Of a stretch of DNA of 34,219 nucleotides, positions 6,672 through 34,219 are shown piece by piece. Numbering within the stretch: position 1 is the stretch's first letter; each line of letters opens with the position of its first letter. The stretch is from a virus. The position numbers and the translations under genes are program-made. The notes under the pieces are model-generated. The model was not told where the DNA came from. It worked only from the letters and a program-made list of their open reading frames with translations, and did no database searches. The DNA lies in the IMG/VR virus record IMGVR_UViG_3300036761_000603, positions 1 through 34,219 of that record; one strand, written 5' to 3'.

Positions 6672-7162
6672 TCCCGCTGACATTCGAGCAGCTCCGCGAC
6701 CCAGGAACCAGCAACCTGTTTCCGCGGCATCTCCTTCGGCACGGCGACACGGCGCTGGTGCTGTTCGCCGCGGGCTTCCACGGCCGCCAGGATGCGTTCT
6801 GGATCGCAGAGGCGGGAATGACGGCAACGTGCGTGGATCTCGACAAGATCCGTCTGCACGACATGGCTGCTGTGTATCCGCCCGCATGGGAGTTCGTTGT
6901 TGGTGACGCGTTCGCGTTCGTGGAGGAATGCGCCGCTGAGCCGCACCGGTGGGATGTCGTGACTGTCGATTGCTGGTCGAACCAGTTCGACGCGTGCGCC
7001 GCTGCCGCGGAGTTATGGTGCTCGGTCGCGAGATCCGCGGTTGTGCTTGGCACCGGACGTGGAACGGTGGTCGTCCCGCCTGACGGGTGGGAGATCAGCG
7101 AGGTACGCCACCGCTCGACCTACGACGGCGGCGTGTTCTGGACTGTGCTGGAGCCACGATGA
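6668..7162 (+). CDS. class I SAM-methyltransferase-like protein
   Basis: 164 residues from the GTG overlapping the previous stop as GTGA. A Rossmann-like series is visible: a hydrophobic strand with a glycine turn (VLFAAGFHG, 31-39), a strand ending in acids (CVDLDK, 55-60), GDAFAF (79-84) and WDVVTVDCW (95-103). This is the layout of a short class I methyltransferase or spermidine-synthase-like fold. The first glycine loop is weaker than in typical enzymes, so activity is uncertain. Its place between two acyltransferases suggests sugar O- or N-methylation. Confidence 0.6.
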   Translation: MIPLTFEQLRDPGTSNLFPRHLLRHGDTALVLFAAGFHGRQDAFWIAEAGMTATCVDLDKIRLHDMAAVYPPAWEFVVGDAFAFVEECAAEPHRWDVVTVDCWSNQFDACAAAAELWCSVARSAVVLGTGRGTVVVPPDGWEISEVRHRSTYDGGVFWTVLEPR

Positions 7163-7596
7163 TCAGGCGTGAACACCAGAAATATCCGCTCCGCACAGGC
7201 GACGTCGCGCGGGTCGGCACGGGCGCCTTCTACCTCGACGAGATCACGTTGCTGAACGACCAGGGCATCACGATCGGCGACCGTGTGTCGATCGGCGCGC
7301 GCTGCTGGCTCAACGGGTTCGGCGGCATCACGATCGGGTCAGACACCATGATCGGGCCCGGCGTGTTCATTCACTCCGCCAACCACAAGATCGTGGATGG
7401 CAGCGTCGACCCTGACGAATGGGATGAGCGGCCCGTGACGATCGGTCGTGGTTGCTGGATCGGCGCTGGCAGCATCGTGCTGCCCGGCACAACACTGGAC
7501 GACGGCTGTGTGGTCGGCGCTGGATCGGTGCTGCACGGCCATTACGACACAGGGGTTGTGTTCGGCCCGAAAGCCCGCGAGCTGGAAACCGCATGA
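7159..7596 (+). CDS. hexapeptide-repeat (left-handed beta-helix) acyltransferase
   Basis: 145 residues with ATGA overlaps on both sides. Repeated I-G-x-x-x-x hexads run from about 37 to 125 (ITIGDRVSIGARCW, ITIGSDTMIGPGVFI, VTIGRGCWIGAGSIVLPG, VVGAGSVL). The loop with HSANH at 72-76 supplies the histidine used for catalysis in maltose/galactoside acetyltransferase relatives. It likely transfers acetyl from acetyl-CoA to a sugar hydroxyl or amine as a trimer. Length is short but complete for this group, which lacks the N-terminal helical domain. Confidence 0.85.
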   Translation: MIRREHQKYPLRTGDVARVGTGAFYLDEITLLNDQGITIGDRVSIGARCWLNGFGGITIGSDTMIGPGVFIHSANHKIVDGSVDPDEWDERPVTIGRGCWIGAGSIVLPGTTLDDGCVVGAGSVLHGHYDTGVVFGPKARELETA

Positions 7597-8337: not shown

Positions 8338-11616
<3,279 letters not shown>

Positions 11617-14014: not shown

Positions 14015-14250
14015 CGGCGGTTCAGGACATGGAGCGGCGGGCTCATCGTTTCGATGAGCTGGCCCTCCGTCCGCAAGCGAAGGGCATCCCGACGTTCCGC
14101 TGTCCCGTGTGCAGAAACAAAGCTCAGAATGATGCAACGGCGATGGAACCAGCGTGCACGGGCCCAGGATCGGCTGACGTGCATCCGCTGACGGTGATGG
14201 TGCGTGTGGCCGACGAGCAGCCGACGAACATGATCTGCGTGACGACATGA
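14011..14250 (+). CDS. small zinc-ribbon-like protein
   Basis: 79 residues with ATGA overlaps at both ends. Cys-Pro-Val-Cys at about 31-34 and further Cys at about 49 and 76 suggest a zinc site, though the second pair is widely spaced. The N-terminal 25 residues are helical and charged. It directly precedes a methyltransferase and two glycosyltransferases; an adaptor role is a guess only. Confidence 0.6.
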   Translation: MTAVQDMERRAHRFDELALRPQAKGIPTFRCPVCRNKAQNDATAMEPACTGPGSADVHPLTVMVRVADEQPTNMICVTT

Positions 14251-14855
14251 CAACATCTAGCGGGAACCTCGTGGAAGACGCGCAGGACTGGGAAGCCGGC
14301 TGGTGGGGCGACTGCATCAACACGTTCGGTGAGGAAGCGAAGCAGATCAGCTACGCGCACCGGATGGGGTTGCTCGTCGTGCCCGACTACGGACGCTGGC
14401 CCATGTACGACCTTGCCGAAGCATCCATTCTCGATCTCGGCGGCGGCCCGGTATCGATGCTGCTGAAGACACGCAACAAAGGTAAGCATTGCACCGTCGT
14501 CGACCCGTGCGCGTACCCGGAATGGATCGCGACCCGCTACGAGGTCGCGGGCATCGAGTACGTGCGAGAGGAAGCCGAGACGTTCCAGTCGGGCATCGAG
14601 TTCTCGGAGGCGTGGTGCTACAACGTGTTGCAGCACGTCGTCGACCCCGAGTCGGTGATCGCGACAGCGAAGACGCACGCGAGCAGGCTCCGCATCTTCG
14701 AGTGGCTCGAGACGGAGGCGTGCGACGGACATCCGCACACGTTGCGGGCTGACGACCTGAACAAGTGGATCGGGAAGGGTTCGGGCGTGATCGAGATGGT
14801 GAACGAGAACGGCGCCTACGGCCTCGCGTTCTACGGAAACTTCGACCTCCGGTGA
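14247..14855 (+). CDS. class I SAM-dependent methyltransferase
   Basis: 202 residues. ILDLGGGPVS at 61-70 is a good motif I for SAM binding; CTVVDPC (about 81-87) fits the acidic end of strand 2, and a CYNVLQHVVDPE segment (about 129-140) matches the post-III region of small-molecule methyltransferases. The C-terminal half contains an EWLETEACDGHPHTL segment like those of sugar and lipid O-methyltransferases. Coupled by ATGA to the zinc-ribbon-like gene and by GTGA to a glycosyltransferase, so a sugar-methylating role is likely. Confidence 0.85.
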   Translation: MTTSSGNLVEDAQDWEAGWWGDCINTFGEEAKQISYAHRMGLLVVPDYGRWPMYDLAEASILDLGGGPVSMLLKTRNKGKHCTVVDPCAYPEWIATRYEVAGIEYVREEAETFQSGIEFSEAWCYNVLQHVVDPESVIATAKTHASRLRIFEWLETEACDGHPHTLRADDLNKWIGKGSGVIEMVNENGAYGLAFYGNFDLR

Positions 14856-16006
14856 CATCAACGCTACACGTGATCGGACTTCCACACACGCAGACGAACG
14901 GCGAGTGGACGACGTGCGCATACACGACGAAGGCCGAACGGTTCTGCCGAATGATGACCGGAGGCGACCGCAAAGTCATCCTCTATTCGGGCGAGCTCAA
15001 CACAGCTCCCTGTGATGAGCATGTTCCGTTGCTGACGGAGGAACGACGGCGCGAGTGGTTCGGCCCGCCCGACGAGACACAGCTGAACCGGGGCGGCTTC
15101 GACTGGCAGGCAACGTCGCCCTGGTGGACGGAAATGAACGCGAGGGCGATCGGCGAGATCATGGAACGAGCCGACAAGCAGGATCTGCTTCTTCTCTCGT
15201 CGGGCACGTCACAACAGATCATCGCGGAGGCGCTACCTCAGCTCACGCTCGCGGAGTACGGCGTCGGCTACGAAGGCATCATCCTCACTCGGGCGAAGAC
15301 GGCAGGCCCGTGCTTCGCCGCTTACGAGTCCCATTCGCACCGGCACCTTGTTTACGGGCTGAACGGTTGGCGCCGGGGCCGCGAGTACGACACCGTGATC
15401 CCGAACTTCTTCGACCGGGCCGAGCTGCCCGAGGGCGACGGCGACGGCGGCTACCTGTTGTTCATGGGCAGGCTCATCCATCAAAAGGGCGTCCACATCG
15501 CCGCGATGGTCGCGGAAGCTCTCGACATGCGGCTCGTCGTCACGGGGCCCGGGGCGACGGAGTGGGGAGACGGCTTCGTCAGGTTCCCCGAAGGCGAAGC
15601 GAGGGCGCCGGGATTGGAGTACGTCGGCCCCGTCGGGATCGAGGAGCGCGCGCGGCTGATGGGAGGCGCGGCGGTGACGCTGATGCCGACCCTGTACGTG
15701 GAGCCGTTCGGAGGCGTCGCCGTCGAAAGCATGATGTGTGGTACCCCCGTCGTCACGACCGACTTCGGAGCGTTCACAGAAACCGTCGTCGAGGGGCTAT
15801 CCGGCTACCGCTTCCAGACGCTGCAGGAAGCTGTCGACGGAACAGAGCGCGCAATGAGCCTCGACCGGCCCACCGTTCGCGACTACGCCGTCGGCCGCTA
15901 CTCCCTCGACGCCGTCGCCCCACTGTACGACCGCTGGTTCACGAACCTCGACGGACTGTGGGGCGAAGGCTGGACCGCCCTGCGCGAACGAGAACTGGCC
16001 GCCTGA
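14852..16006 (+). CDS. GT4-like (GT-B fold) glycosyltransferase
   Basis: 384 residues from the GTG that overlaps the previous stop (GTGA); an upstream ATG at 14765 lies inside the methyltransferase gene. The C-terminal half has the GT4 signature: GRLIHQKGVHIAA (about 207-219), then E284-PFGGVAV-E292, the E-x7-E nucleotide-sugar motif, followed by CGTPVVTTDFGAFTE. The N-terminal half is the acceptor domain. It probably transfers a sugar from a nucleotide donor onto a growing glycan or virion protein. Confidence 0.92.
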   Translation: MTSTLHVIGLPHTQTNGEWTTCAYTTKAERFCRMMTGGDRKVILYSGELNTAPCDEHVPLLTEERRREWFGPPDETQLNRGGFDWQATSPWWTEMNARAIGEIMERADKQDLLLLSSGTSQQIIAEALPQLTLAEYGVGYEGIILTRAKTAGPCFAAYESHSHRHLVYGLNGWRRGREYDTVIPNFFDRAELPEGDGDGGYLLFMGRLIHQKGVHIAAMVAEALDMRLVVTGPGATEWGDGFVRFPEGEARAPGLEYVGPVGIEERARLMGGAAVTLMPTLYVEPFGGVAVESMMCGTPVVTTDFGAFTETVVEGLSGYRFQTLQEAVDGTERAMSLDRPTVRDYAVGRYSLDAVAPLYDRWFTNLDGLWGEGWTALRERELAA

Positions 16007-28716: not shown

Positions 28717-30041
28717 CTGGTAGGCCCGTGGCTCGGCTTCCGAATCGCGAGACGAGCGTGAGCTCGTACGCCGACTACATCCAGACGAAGCTGCGGATGC
28801 ACACCGACTGCGGTTTCGACGCGCAGGCGTCCGAGCAGCTGTATCCGTTCCAACGCGAGATCGTGGAGTGGTCGCTGAAGCGCGGCCGTGGTGCTGTGTT
28901 TGCCGACTGTGGACTTGGGAAGACGCCGATGCAGTTGGAGTGGGCGAGCCAGATCGCCGCCCGCACGAACGGAGACGTGCTGATCCTGGCGCCGCTCGCA
29001 GTGTCCGCGCAGACGAAACGGGAGGGCGAGAAGTTCCATGTCGACGTGAACGTGTGCCGCACCGCCACGGACATTCGCCCGGGCGTGAACGTCGCGAACT
29101 ACGAGCGGCTGCATCATCTACAGGGCCACGAGTGGTCGGCTGTCGTCCTCGACGAATCCTCGATCCTCAAAGCCTTCGACGGGAAAACGCGGGTTGCTCT
29201 AACGGAGTGGGCGCAGCGGATCCCGTTCCGACTGTGCTGCACCGCCACCCCTTCGCCGAATGACTATGAGGAGCTCGGCGGCCACTCCGAGTTCCTAGGG
29301 GTGCTGAACCGGAAGGTGATGTTGGCCGAGTTCTTTGTCAATGACGGCATCAGCGCCGGCCACTGGCGGCTGAAAGGCCATGCGGACGGCGCCTACTGGA
29401 AGTGGGTCGCGACGTGGGCGCGGGCGTTGCGGTCCCCGGCCGACATGGGCTACCCCTCCGACGGCTTCGACCTACCGCGGCTGATCGTGGAAACGATCCA
29501 GGTTGACGCGGGCGCCGTCTCCGACGACCGGCTGTTCGCGGTTCCCGTCGCGACGATGATGGAACGCCGGCAGGCACGGCGGGAAAGCATCTCGGAGCGT
29601 GTCGGGATCATGGCCGACATCGTCAACGACTCGTCCGAAGCTTTCGTCGTCTGGTGCGACCTAAACGACGAATCGTCCGCGCTCGCAAAGATGATCCCCG
29701 ACTCCGTCGAAGTGCGCGGATCAGACGACGCCGACCACAAGGAATCGGCGCTGCTCGCGTTCACGAACGGCGACGCCCGCGTCATCGTCACCAAGCCCTC
29801 GATCGCCGGCTGGGGGCTGAACTGGCAGCACTGCCACAACGTCGCCTTCGCCGGCCTCTCCGACTCGTATGAGCAGTACTACCAGGCCGTCCGCCGCTGC
29901 TGGCGGTTCGGACAAACGCATCCGGTGCGCGTCGTGATCGTCGCGTCCAACCGCGAACAGGCCGTCCTCGAGAACGTGCGTCGCAAAGAGGCGCAGGCGC
30001 AGGCCATGTTCGCCGACATCGTGGAGGCCATGAATGAGTGA
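28713..30041 (+). CDS. SF2 helicase (SNF2/DEAD-like)
   Basis: 442 residues from the ATG in the ATGA overlap. Walker A DCGLGKT is at 65-71, motif II is DESS at 147-150 in place of DEAH, and the motif III TATPSPND is at 177-184. The second RecA lobe has SIAGWGLNW (about 361-369) and motif VI QAVRRCWRFGQ (about 391-401), as in SNF2-type ATPases. Likely moves along double-stranded DNA. It overlaps the methyltransferase by 8 bases, so the two may act together on DNA modification or defence avoidance. Confidence 0.9.
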   Translation: MTGRPVARLPNRETSVSSYADYIQTKLRMHTDCGFDAQASEQLYPFQREIVEWSLKRGRGAVFADCGLGKTPMQLEWASQIAARTNGDVLILAPLAVSAQTKREGEKFHVDVNVCRTATDIRPGVNVANYERLHHLQGHEWSAVVLDESSILKAFDGKTRVALTEWAQRIPFRLCCTATPSPNDYEELGGHSEFLGVLNRKVMLAEFFVNDGISAGHWRLKGHADGAYWKWVATWARALRSPADMGYPSDGFDLPRLIVETIQVDAGAVSDDRLFAVPVATMMERRQARRESISERVGIMADIVNDSSEAFVVWCDLNDESSALAKMIPDSVEVRGSDDADHKESALLAFTNGDARVIVTKPSIAGWGLNWQHCHNVAFAGLSDSYEQYYQAVRRCWRFGQTHPVRVVIVASNREQAVLENVRRKEAQAQAMFADIVEAMNE

Positions 30042-30954
30042 GCGGGCAGGAGACAGGTGGACGTTAAAGCTCGGCGATTGCGTCGAGCGGGTCGCCGAAG
30101 TGGACGACGAATCGGTTGGGCTCAGTGTGTTCAGCCCTCCATTCCCGGGAATGTACGTGTACAGCGACTCACCCCGAGACATGGGCAACGCCCACAACAT
30201 CGAGGACTTCATCGACCACTACCGCTACCTGATACCCGAGCTCCTCCGCGTCACCAAGCCTGGACGCCACGTCGCCGTCCATCTCTGCCAGACGATCAGC
30301 GTCAAATACCTCGACGGCTACTCAGGCATCAAGGACTACCGCGGTGCCGTCATCCAGGCGATGATCGACGGCGGATTCATCTACTACGGCGAAGTCTGCA
30401 TTGACAAAGACCCGCAGGTCAAGGCGATCCGAACGAAGGATCAAGGGCTGCTGTTCAAGAGCCTCGCTACCGACTCGTCCCGGATGCACATGGCGCTCGC
30501 CGACTACCTATTGCAGTTCCGGAAGCCCGGCGACAACGAAGAACCGATCCGGGCCGGGATCAGCGCACGCTACGGCAACGCGGACGGGTGGATCACCGCC
30601 GAAGAATGGATCGAATGGGCCGCCCCCGTCTGGTATCGGGCATCCGACAGCTACCCGGGCGGCATCCGCGAAACCGACGTCCTCAACGCCGCCGTCGCCC
30701 GCGAAGACAGGGACGAACGCCACATCGCACCGCTGCAGCTCGGCGTCATCGAACGCGCCGTAAAGCTGTGGAGCAACCCCGGCGACCTCGTACTCTCACC
30801 GTTCGCGGGCATCGGCTCCGAAGGCTACATCGCGCTCAAGCACGGCCGCAGATTCGTCGGCGTTGAGTTGAAGCAGTCGTACTTCGATACCGCTTGCCGA
30901 AACCTCACCGCAGCCGGAGGACAGATGAGTCTCCTAGCCGGTGACGCCGCGTGA
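30034..30954 (+). CDS. beta-class site-specific DNA methyltransferase
   Basis: 306 residues. Catalytic motif IV is SPPF at 34-37 and the SAM-binding motif I is SPFAGIGSEG at 255-264; IV before I is the beta-class order. SPP(F/Y/W) is commonest in N4-cytosine enzymes, though adenine cannot be excluded. The central region (about 110-230) would be the target-recognition domain. Overlap with the helicase suggests translational pairing. Probably shields phage DNA from host restriction. Confidence 0.9.
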   Translation: MSERAGDRWTLKLGDCVERVAEVDDESVGLSVFSPPFPGMYVYSDSPRDMGNAHNIEDFIDHYRYLIPELLRVTKPGRHVAVHLCQTISVKYLDGYSGIKDYRGAVIQAMIDGGFIYYGEVCIDKDPQVKAIRTKDQGLLFKSLATDSSRMHMALADYLLQFRKPGDNEEPIRAGISARYGNADGWITAEEWIEWAAPVWYRASDSYPGGIRETDVLNAAVAREDRDERHIAPLQLGVIERAVKLWSNPGDLVLSPFAGIGSEGYIALKHGRRFVGVELKQSYFDTACRNLTAAGGQMSLLAGDAA

Positions 30955-32356: not shown

Positions 32357-32553
32357 TGCGCGACGACCTTTACATCAGCGAACTGCAACATCGCATCCAA
32401 ATGCTCGAACGCCAACTGTCCGCACGTCCCACCAACGCCCAGGTCGAATACGTGCGCGACTACGGCAACCGGCAGAAGAAACTGTACGAGGCCGTGTTGG
32501 CCCGCTGCGTCGTGCTCAAACGCAAACTGGAAGAGAAGGGAAAGGCGGCGTGA
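32356..32553 (+). CDS. small coiled-coil protein
   Basis: 65 residues. Almost wholly helical with heptads (ISELQHRIQMLERQL, later LYEAVLARCVVLKRKL), predicted to dimerise. Starts at the TGATG overlap and ends in a GTGA overlap. May bridge the Cys-rich protein and the nuclease that follow each other here. No family. Confidence 0.65.
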   Translation: MRDDLYISELQHRIQMLERQLSARPTNAQVEYVRDYGNRQKKLYEAVLARCVVLKRKLEEKGKAA

Positions 32554-33104
32554 GCGTCGACTACGAACTCGCTTTCCCCACCCCTGAAGCGCAACAAGCA
32601 GCCCTAGACGCATACATCCAAGCCAACATCGGCTACGGCGGCGGCAAACCCTACGACACACGCCAGTTCTACCGCTGCCCATTCCGAGGCGACGTCGCCG
32701 GATACGAAATCCCGTACGACCGGGCACGCGAGCTCGTCACAGCCGCGAACGAAGAACGAACAGAACGTCGCGATCTCGAGCAGCCGAGCCCCGTCAGCGA
32801 AGCCGAGGTCGTGCTCCTCGCCGCCCTCCTGTTCTACGGCGAAAACCCGCTGTTGCAGCATCCCGTCGGCCCCTACGACCTCGACTTCCTGATCGACGAC
32901 TACCGAGCCGCGATCGAGGTCGACGGACGCCAACACCTCAACCGAAACCAAGCCCGCAAAGACAAGCGGCGAGACCAGTATGTGCTCGAAAGGACCGGCA
33001 TCAGAACATATCGAGTTCCCGCCCGAGACGTCTTCAAAGACCCCCTTTGGACAGTCCGTTACACCTGCCGAGAGATCAGCCTCGACACCCTTAGGGGACT
33101 CTAA
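32550..33104 (+). CDS. DUF559/Vsr-like endonuclease
   Basis: 184 residues from the GTG in a GTGA overlap. The C-terminal domain has the PD-(D/E)XK layout of DUF559 proteins: YDLDFLI with Asp112, then IEVDGRQH with Glu123, Asp125 and His129, then KDKRRDQYVLERTGIRTYRV. The N-terminal 90 residues are phage-specific and helical. Could nick DNA in replication or recombination, or act as a mobile or anti-competitor nuclease. Its stop overlaps the initiator start (TAATG). Confidence 0.8.
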   Translation: MSVDYELAFPTPEAQQAALDAYIQANIGYGGGKPYDTRQFYRCPFRGDVAGYEIPYDRARELVTAANEERTERRDLEQPSPVSEAEVVLLAALLFYGENPLLQHPVGPYDLDFLIDDYRAAIEVDGRQHLNRNQARKDKRRDQYVLERTGIRTYRVPARDVFKDPLWTVRYTCREISLDTLRGL

Positions 33105-33787
33105 TGCCGTACCTCCTGATCGACGACGGAATGGCCGAAAACCCGAAGGTAATCGGGCTGTCAGACAAGGCGTTTCGCCTGTGGATAACTGCCCTCGTGT
33201 ATTGCGCCAGAAACCTAACGGACGGTGCTATCTCCGAGTTAGCTATCCGTAGTTTGGCACCTAACTGCCAGATAGATAGGCCGTTAAGCGTCGTAAAACA
33301 GATCGTAGAAGCAGGCCTATTCGACGAAACAGACGCCGGATGGCTCGTTCATGACTTCCTCGAATACAACCCTAGTCGCGCTGAAATGGACAGAAAACGC
33401 GCAAAGACAAGGGAAAGGAAACGCCGTTACGACCAATCACGTAACGCCAACCGTAACGCCGTTACGAACATGGGCGGTAACGGCGTCAAAGACCCCCCCC
33501 AAGGGGGGTCTAAAGACCCCCCCCGTGGGAGCAGCCCTGCGGGCCCCCACGGAAAGACCAACATCGCAGCCGGCGCAGTCGGCACCAGATCAGCAAGCAA
33601 ACCCCAACGCGAACGAACACCAGACCCCGAAATCAACGCCGCACCACCACCACCAGAACTCCTCGAAATGTTCGGCATCACCAAACCAAACATCCTCCCC
33701 GAACCCGACGTAGACGAACAAGACCAGGTGCTCATCGACTACTACGCCACCCTCGAGGTCGACGAAGCCGGATTCCCAATCGCATGA
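33104..33787 (+). CDS. DnaD-like replication initiator / replisome organiser
   Basis: 227 residues. Residues 1-95 form a winged-helix region (LSDKAFRLWITALVYCARNLTDG, then VVKQIVEAGLFDET and WLVHDFLEYNPS) like DnaD-family phage replisome organisers. Residues 95-115 are very basic. A linker (about 115-150) is rich in Asn, Pro and Gly and is encoded by CGTAACG repeats and C8 tracts, which suggests an origin inside the gene. The acidic C-terminus (about 180-227) may bind the host helicase loader or helicase. No polymerase or primase gene was found, so host replication proteins are probably recruited. Confidence 0.78.
   Translation: MPYLLIDDGMAENPKVIGLSDKAFRLWITALVYCARNLTDGAISELAIRSLAPNCQIDRPLSVVKQIVEAGLFDETDAGWLVHDFLEYNPSRAEMDRKRAKTRERKRRYDQSRNANRNAVTNMGGNGVKDPPQGGSKDPPRGSSPAGPHGKTNIAAGAVGTRSASKPQRERTPDPEINAAPPPPELLEMFGITKPNILPEPDVDEQDQVLIDYYATLEVDEAGFPIA
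33425..33482 (+). repeat. CGTAACG iterons, possible origin of replication
   Basis: Four exact copies in both orientations: CGTTACG at 33425-33431 and 33460-33466, CGTAACG at 33440-33446 and 33452-33458. A fifth near-copy, GGTAACG, is at 33476-33482. Copies at 33452 and 33460 form a perfect inverted repeat with one base between them. They lie within the coding region of the putative initiator, as the iterons of lambda O do. Confidence 0.6.
33488..33524 (+). repeat. C8/G6/C8 element forming alternative hairpins
   Basis: AAAGACCCCCCCC occurs at 33488-33500 and again at 33512-33524. The block GGGGGGTC at 33503-33510 can pair with GACCCCCC at 33491-33498 (loop CCAA) or with GACCCCCC at 33515-33522 (loop TAAA), both 8-bp stems. 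A further CCGTGGG/CCCACGG stem lies at 33523-33552. Confidence 0.75.
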
Positions 33788-34020: not shown

Positions 34021-34219
34021 CGTCCATCCGCCCCCCGTGATATACACACCAGTGGGAACCCGCAGGCACAAGCAACTTGCGGCACCCCGGCCCGAGACGA
34101 AGACCCTCGGCCACCTTCTACGCCACACGTGTCACCAAAGCCACCCACCGAGGTGGCCTCGTAGTTGCCAGAACGAAAACAGACATCAGCCGTTTTTAAG
34201 CCGGAGGCGGTTTCTTGAC
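34021..34219 (+). other. 199-base terminal region without a confident gene
   Basis: Two modest hairpins are visible: GGCC-c-GAG with CTC-GGCC (34089-34112) and CGAGG-tgg-CCTCG (34149-34161). A T5 run lies at 34193-34197. In the frame of the HNH gene the region is open from GTG 34037 or 34052 to the window end, so it may encode the N-terminus of that gene if the genome is circular or terminally joined. No clear promoter was found. Confidence 0.5.

Follow-up and report, generated by a model that had tools for sequence, protein, structure and literature searches.

A candidate lambda-type replication origin inside the initiator gene of a virus, with a layout that recurs among actinophages

The present analysis points to a cis-acting replication origin of the lambda type, in a virus of actinobacteria, that lies within the gene for its own initiator. 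The candidate occupies positions 33425-33552 of the window, by which we mean the whole of IMG/VR virus record IMGVR_UViG_3300036761_000603 (34,219 bases). We put the probability of this reading at roughly 85%. Homologs that are annotated as replication initiators carry iterons, a tandem repeat and often a hairpin at the same location, regardless of whether that location is coding or non-coding. An origin inside the initiator gene was the central claim of the original prediction, and it appears to be essentially right, as it is supported both by the layout found in relatives and by an association between iteron type and one helix of the initiator. The gene and the protein parts concerned are the following.

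33104-33787, plus strand: predicted replication initiator gene, 227 aa (PHROG, tblastn, AlphaFold2)
Initiator protein: winged-helix N-domain, residues 1-90; basic helix, residues 92-122; low-confidence linker, residues ~123-183; small C-terminal part
33377-33469, plus strand: codons of the basic helix (residues 92-122), the proposed iteron reader, with K106 and Y109 as key residues (column association)

That the gene at 33104-33787 encodes a replication initiator is indicated by several sequence comparisons. The protein matches PHROG 2447 'replication initiation protein' at E 7e-29 (7.3e-29) over residues 1-181, a profile match that places it within the actinophage replication initiator family, and it matches PHROG 3926, also 'replication initiation protein', at E 2e-22. 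A tblastn search with the initiator matched 235 actinophage records, several of which are annotated 'RepA-like replication initiator'. AlphaFold2 models a confident winged-helix N-domain (residues 1-90) and a long helix (residues 92-122), with pLDDT values of 96-98 over residues 11-110, followed by a low-confidence linker after residue ~123. Among the viral predicted structures of BFVD, this fold resembles replisome organisers and DUF1376 proteins with E values down to ~2e-7, and the modelled N-domain is thus probably of a fold shared with winged-helix initiators of these types; a lambda-O-domain protein appears only at E 0.24. Foldseek returned nothing below E 0.001 from the PDB, and its VIA list consists of general winged-helix proteins, which do not indicate function. 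The gene had been described as DnaD-like, and this survives insofar as the product is a predicted initiator whose winged helix is like those of replisome organisers and DUF1376 proteins. The label itself is loose, as a Pfam search of the protein found no family at E<=1, thus neither the lambda O N-domain nor DnaD, and by sequence the initiator is recognisable as neither of them.

The start of the initiator gene is overlapped by a restriction-endonuclease-like gene (32550-33104, REase_MTES_1575/DUF559), and in several relatives the gene immediately upstream of the initiator encodes an HNH or RusA-type nuclease. In one relative (L002:6004-6996), an apparent HNH endonuclease motif, as read from the sequence, is inserted between the initiator N-domain and the C-terminal part. 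Elsewhere in the window, 28764-30954 encodes a SNF2-type helicase and, immediately after it, an N4/N6 DNA methylase, while 7144-7596 and 14247-16006 hold genes for a hexapeptide transferase, a methyltransferase and a group 1 glycosyltransferase, an unusual set of sugar type.

Within the candidate origin, the following elements were located.

33425-33431, minus strand: iteron 1, CGTAACG, exact match
33440-33446, plus strand: iteron 2, CGTAACG, exact match
33452-33458, plus strand: iteron 3, CGTAACG, exact match, left half of the inverted repeat 33452-33466
33460-33466, minus strand: iteron 4, CGTAACG, exact match, right half of the inverted repeat
33476-33482, plus strand: iteron 5, GGTAACG, one base off (6/7), overlapping GTAACGGCG at 33477-33485
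33488-33500, plus strand: A/C-rich tract copy 1, AAAGA-C8, in the place of the relatives' (CCCGA)n repeat
33512-33524, plus strand: A/C-rich tract copy 2, AAAGA-C8
33490-33511: hairpin A, AGACCCCCC / GGGGGGTCT, 9 bp, loop CCAA, left pairing of the G6 block
33503-33522: hairpin B, GGGGGGTC-TAAA-GACCCCCC, 8 bp, loop TAAA, right pairing of the G6 block
33523-33552: downstream (third) GC hairpin, CCGTGGGaGC...GCcCCCACGG

As had been predicted, five GTAACG sites in both orientations are gathered inside 58 nt, four of them exact CGTAACG and one GGTAACG, and one pair forms a perfect palindrome, the inverted repeat CGTAACG-C-CGTTACG centred on one base. Over the entire window CGTAACG is mildly enriched (9 copies vs 4.75 expected, a number reached in 2/100 shuffles), and, outside the collagen gene, no 6-mer of the window is clustered as densely as the iterons are. 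The product of the collagen gene (8338-11616), possibly a tail fibre, has 1092 residues with collagen repeats (Pfam Collagen, E 3e-119). Both of the anticipated AAAGAC8 repeats are likewise present, and AAAGACCCCCC occurs twice in the window, each time at an AAAGA-C8 block, with 0.01 occurrences expected. The tract has no clean short tandem repeat (best run 7) and consists of these two copies. The G6 block at 33503-33508 had been thought able to form either of two 8-bp hairpins; it does have two alternative pairings, of which the rightward one is 8 bp and the leftward one 9 bp. Similarly, the linker-coding part of the gene does hold these elements, but not exclusively, since iterons 1-5 (codons ~108-127) also encode the end of the predicted basic helix. 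The stability of 33480-33560 exceeds the genome mean, and the interval contains no classical AT-rich unwinding element; softer DNA is found upstream of the candidate origin tract, at 33220-33420. The detrended GC skew has its minimum at the contig ends rather than at 33.4 kb, and the keto-skew minimum, at 34191, is nearby without being decisive.

Every one of these repeats lies inside coding sequence, which raises the possibility that they merely mirror a weakly constrained, proline/glycine-rich repetitive linker (N-A-V-T-N, K-D-P-P) and have no function as DNA. Compatible with this, the model assigns low confidence and no structure to the protein beyond residue ~123, and the linkers of relatives are R-P-D-P-T repeats. 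However, when codons were redrawn from the phage's own usage with the protein kept, P was 5e-5 for five GTAACG sites and likewise 5e-5 for four CGTAACG sites, 0.004 for two C8 runs and 0.027 for a best stem of at least 9. Such shuffles rarely reproduce the iterons; the repeats are real, and the protein sequence does not account for them. Comparisons with relatives bear on the same question. The pentamer repeat of the family, whose 5-nt period is out of step with the codons, is present in all three codon phases, and at 12 family loci (counted in a set that includes repeat-selected loci) it lies past the initiator stop codon. Propionibacterium phage B22 and Arthrobacter phages Sarge, TripleJ and DrYang have an early-ending initiator, and there most or all of the iterons and repeat falls into an unannotated gap of ~190-315 bp. 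Because a 5-nt repeat occurs in all codon phases and is also found beyond stop codons, selection in the repeat region acts on the DNA, not the protein. Together with a hairpin loop that is conserved over varied stems (see below), these observations render a mere reflection of the linker exceedingly improbable.

The layout itself is widespread, being shared by dozens of related viruses. In L005 and L006, the distant relatives found first (30-33% identity), GTAACG iterons are followed by (CCCCCGT)n in the same place, and iterons ahead of a 5-7-nt tandem repeat are seen in named phages of Gordonia, Mycobacterium, Microbacterium, Arthrobacter, Streptomyces, Propionibacterium and Curtobacterium. 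Our survey set comprised 82 nonredundant relatives chosen by protein alone; a set including repeat-selected loci was not used for prevalence. A tandem-repeat run of at least 12 was present at 52 of the 82 protein-selected loci vs 4/1014 control stretches, and the tandem repeat is the strongest repeat of its own locus in 63/82. Its unit is CCCGA at 35 of the surveyed loci, and it mostly starts 380-450 nt after the start of the N-domain. In the 140 nt before the repeat, a 6-mer with at least 4 copies is found in 52% of cases vs 3% of controls. About a third of the relatives are without a strong repeat. On the coding strand the repeat is A+C-biased in 62/63 cases (mean 0.76, control 0.53), and in relatives the 10 nt directly after it hold a short AT-rich stretch (61% vs 35%). 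The association also holds in reverse, as 54 of 80 viral loci found by (CCCGA)x4.4 alone have an initiator N-domain directly 5' on the same strand. A further 66 prophage loci unused in the 82-locus survey contain repeat runs in 31 cases vs 2/674 controls. A BLAST search of the phage collection for the CCCGA pentamer gave no match, low-complexity sequence probably having been masked.

A scan for (CCCTTA)n yielded mostly unrelated genes, and three of its 29 loci (L221, L226 and L248), from other phage groups, look initiator-like and have iteron-like repeats ahead of the (CCCTTA)n, which hints that the initiator genes of phages other than actinophages may commonly contain such repeats. Searches of viral contigs with the L221 and L226 proteins gave too few relatives for statistics.

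Another recurrent element is the hairpin that follows the repeat. A perfect stem of at least 8 occurs within 48 nt after the repeat in 30% of loci vs 0.7% of control stretches; a perfect hairpin is present in about a third of the 82 relatives, and most relatives are without a compact hairpin of at least 7 bp. For a count of loops, protein-selected and repeat-selected loci were pooled, giving 48 hairpins with a stem of at least 7, which represent 43 distinct stems. The loop is TAAC, TAAA, TGAC or TGAA (C-T[AG]A[CA]-G) in 28/48, every one of them C-G closed, compared with 1/315 control hairpins. The foot of the hairpin is a few nt or less from the end of the repeat. In the prophages, a hairpin with a stem of at least 7 was found in 24/44 vs 2.1% of controls, with the same loops, and hairpin B of the window carries the family's loop as well. 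Because the loop is conserved while the stems vary, the data suggest that structure is recognised at the hairpin.

A conserved loop over varied stems is also typical of RNA signals, and most copies of the hairpin are transcribed. It is therefore conceivable that iterons and tract form an origin, whereas the hairpin is an independent structure of the initiator mRNA that affects translation or stability. We regard this as rather unlikely, since the hairpin foot abuts the end of the DNA repeat, the same loop occurs in the initiator gene of P22, in which the P22 origin lies, and an Rfam search of the gene and the segment produced just weak chance matches far below gathering scores. The Rfam result bears equally on a second alternative, in which there is no origin at all, the iterons being an autoregulatory operator or roadblock and the hairpins an intragenic attenuator or terminator. 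Initiators often autoregulate, and the palindromic sites of the window do adjoin strong hairpins. Nevertheless, the sites lie in the middle of the gene, ~320 nt past the start codon, no T-run follows the hairpin, and the equivalent place holds the known origins of lambda and P22. A purely regulatory role consequently seems very improbable to us, and we return to the reading of an intragenic origin.

The family also offers a view of how the initiator might read the iterons. Relatives were sorted by iteron type (GTAAC/GTCAC, GTTCG, GCAA and TCGC), and the alignment columns most tied to iteron type correspond to window residues 105, 106, 109, 110 and 98, all within the basic helix (K106 z 18, R105 z 11, Y109 z 8). 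Basic-helix columns stay on top even after residues encoded by the iterons are dropped. The helix has the family motif [ED]R-X1-x-x-X2-R. An aromatic X2 accompanies GTAAC in 19/20 cases vs 3/34 with GTCAC, which goes with a small X2, while methionine at X1 accompanies GTTCG in 19/22 cases vs 0/54 with other iteron types; tests of iteron type against basic-helix residues gave p ~1e-10 and 4e-15. Iteron type switches 23 times across the N-domain tree, and well-supported branches provide just 4 independent X2 pairs, none of them contrary, a number too small for significance. The 66 prophage loci partly confirm the X2 and X1 associations (p=0.018 and 0.0015, respectively). With Y109 and GTAACG iterons the window fits the X2 rule, and its Y109 codon overlaps iteron 1. 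Something similar is seen in the eukaryotic bZIP protein Pap1, in which an aromatic residue of NxxAQxxFR reads TTAC half-sites (PMC7261193). Like bZIP basic regions such as that of Pap1 (PMC7261193), the family has a basic helix and an aromatic residue paired with TTAC/GTAA half-sites; unlike them, its helix is without the invariant Asn and does not match the NxxAAxx[SC]R / NxxAQxxFR signature. The resemblance is treated here as a parallel and not as kinship.

When compared with known origins, the candidate most resembles those of the lambda type. In lambda, ori lies in gene O (PMC7466680). The elements of the actinophage loci are arranged as in lambda O and P22 gene 18: iterons come first, next a repeat tract biased towards A and C, and finally a palindrome or hairpin. 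The candidate of the window is similarly found mid-gene, 3' of the DNA-binding domain, with its iterons after the N-domain and before the C-terminal part of the initiator and with hairpins beyond the tract (33503-33522 and 33523-33552). The likeness to lambda O in position that had been proposed stands, and the element order agrees as well, but an AT-rich unwinding tract, a defining feature of such origins, is missing beside the iterons of the window. Instead, the tract is GC-rich and A/C-biased, formed by C8 blocks in the window and by CCCGA repeats in relatives. The iterons also differ, being short 7-mers in both orientations rather than 18-bp direct repeats as in lambda. The best reading of these sequences is that the window represents a variant found across actinophages, with the place of the AT-rich tract taken by a hairpin and a repeat that is GC-rich and A/C-biased. 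In P22 gene 18 (L254:234-1049), CCCCC-TAAA-GGGGG stands right after the repeat tract, with a loop as in the actinophage hairpins.

A C-rich tract at an origin could alternatively work as a template-strand G-quadruplex instead of serving, together with a hairpin, for unwinding or ssDNA binding. The repeats (CCCGA)n, (CCCGT)n and (CCCAAA)n give at least 4 opposite-strand G-tracts in many relatives, and the window has two C8 runs. However, equivalents without G3 tracts occupy the same place in Kithara (AGACAG), TripleJ (CCATTAA) and DrYang (AACCAG), and the repeats of lambda, P22, Rac and a Ruminococcus phage are A-rich; what they have in common is A+C bias, not G-tracts. Because several equivalents are without G-tracts, a G-quadruplex is ruled out as the common denominator, and we consider such a mechanism fairly unlikely for these origins. 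An unwinding or ssDNA-binding tract accompanied by a hairpin is the reading we prefer.

The closest described proteins are those of the 'RepA-like replication initiator' family (PHROG 2447/3926), such as Yvonnetastic gp115, MenE gp43 and Marvin gp71, which have a homologous N-domain and in which the iterons, the repeat tract and in many cases the hairpin are placed as in the window. The window differs from these relatives in having two AAAGA-C8 blocks and no clean pentamer repeat. For the RepA of mycobacteriophage prophages, Wetzel et al. 2020 suggested, by analogy with lambda, that the origin lies within repA or immediately ahead of it, and they reported that the regions examined contained no repeated motifs (PMC7157519). 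That RepA is an actinophage initiator like the protein of the window, but it differs in its length of 320-350 aa and in its plasmid-type relatives (PMC7157519). A search of the open-access literature turned up no account of the CCCGA repeat, of the layout or of the conserved hairpin, an absence that is weak evidence given its open-access scope.

Based upon these features, a sequence of events can be proposed. The initiator would bind the GTAACG iterons, using both its winged-helix N-domain and the basic helix that follows (residues ~98-110), and the resulting complex would strain the adjoining duplex. Opening may then begin at the A/C-biased tract, at its border with the hairpin, whereupon the exposed strand could form the hairpin whose loop is C-TAAA-G. 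This hairpin might keep the site open and/or mark where the helicase loader or primase is placed. We infer initiator binding, unwinding, the role of the hairpin and the start of replication at 33425-33552 from the arrangement of these elements. Whether actinophages have a distinct class of origin, defined by iterons that a basic helix reads with a simple residue-to-base code, a GC-rich, A/C-biased microsatellite (mostly CCCGA) instead of an AT-rich tract, and a C-T(A/G)A(C/A)-G hairpin that serves as a structural signal for the loading of helicase or primase, is a proposition to which we give even odds.

The claims put forward are a conserved origin hairpin loop and a residue code between initiator and iteron, both directly testable, and a further puzzle is how an origin could open beside a very GC-rich tract. 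If the proposal is true, the identical loop of P22 would make the hairpin a wider, unrecognised component of lambda-type origins. To our knowledge, the origins of most actinobacteriophages are unmapped, and a rule based upon sequence alone would indicate where they lie in dozens of phages and prophages already sequenced.
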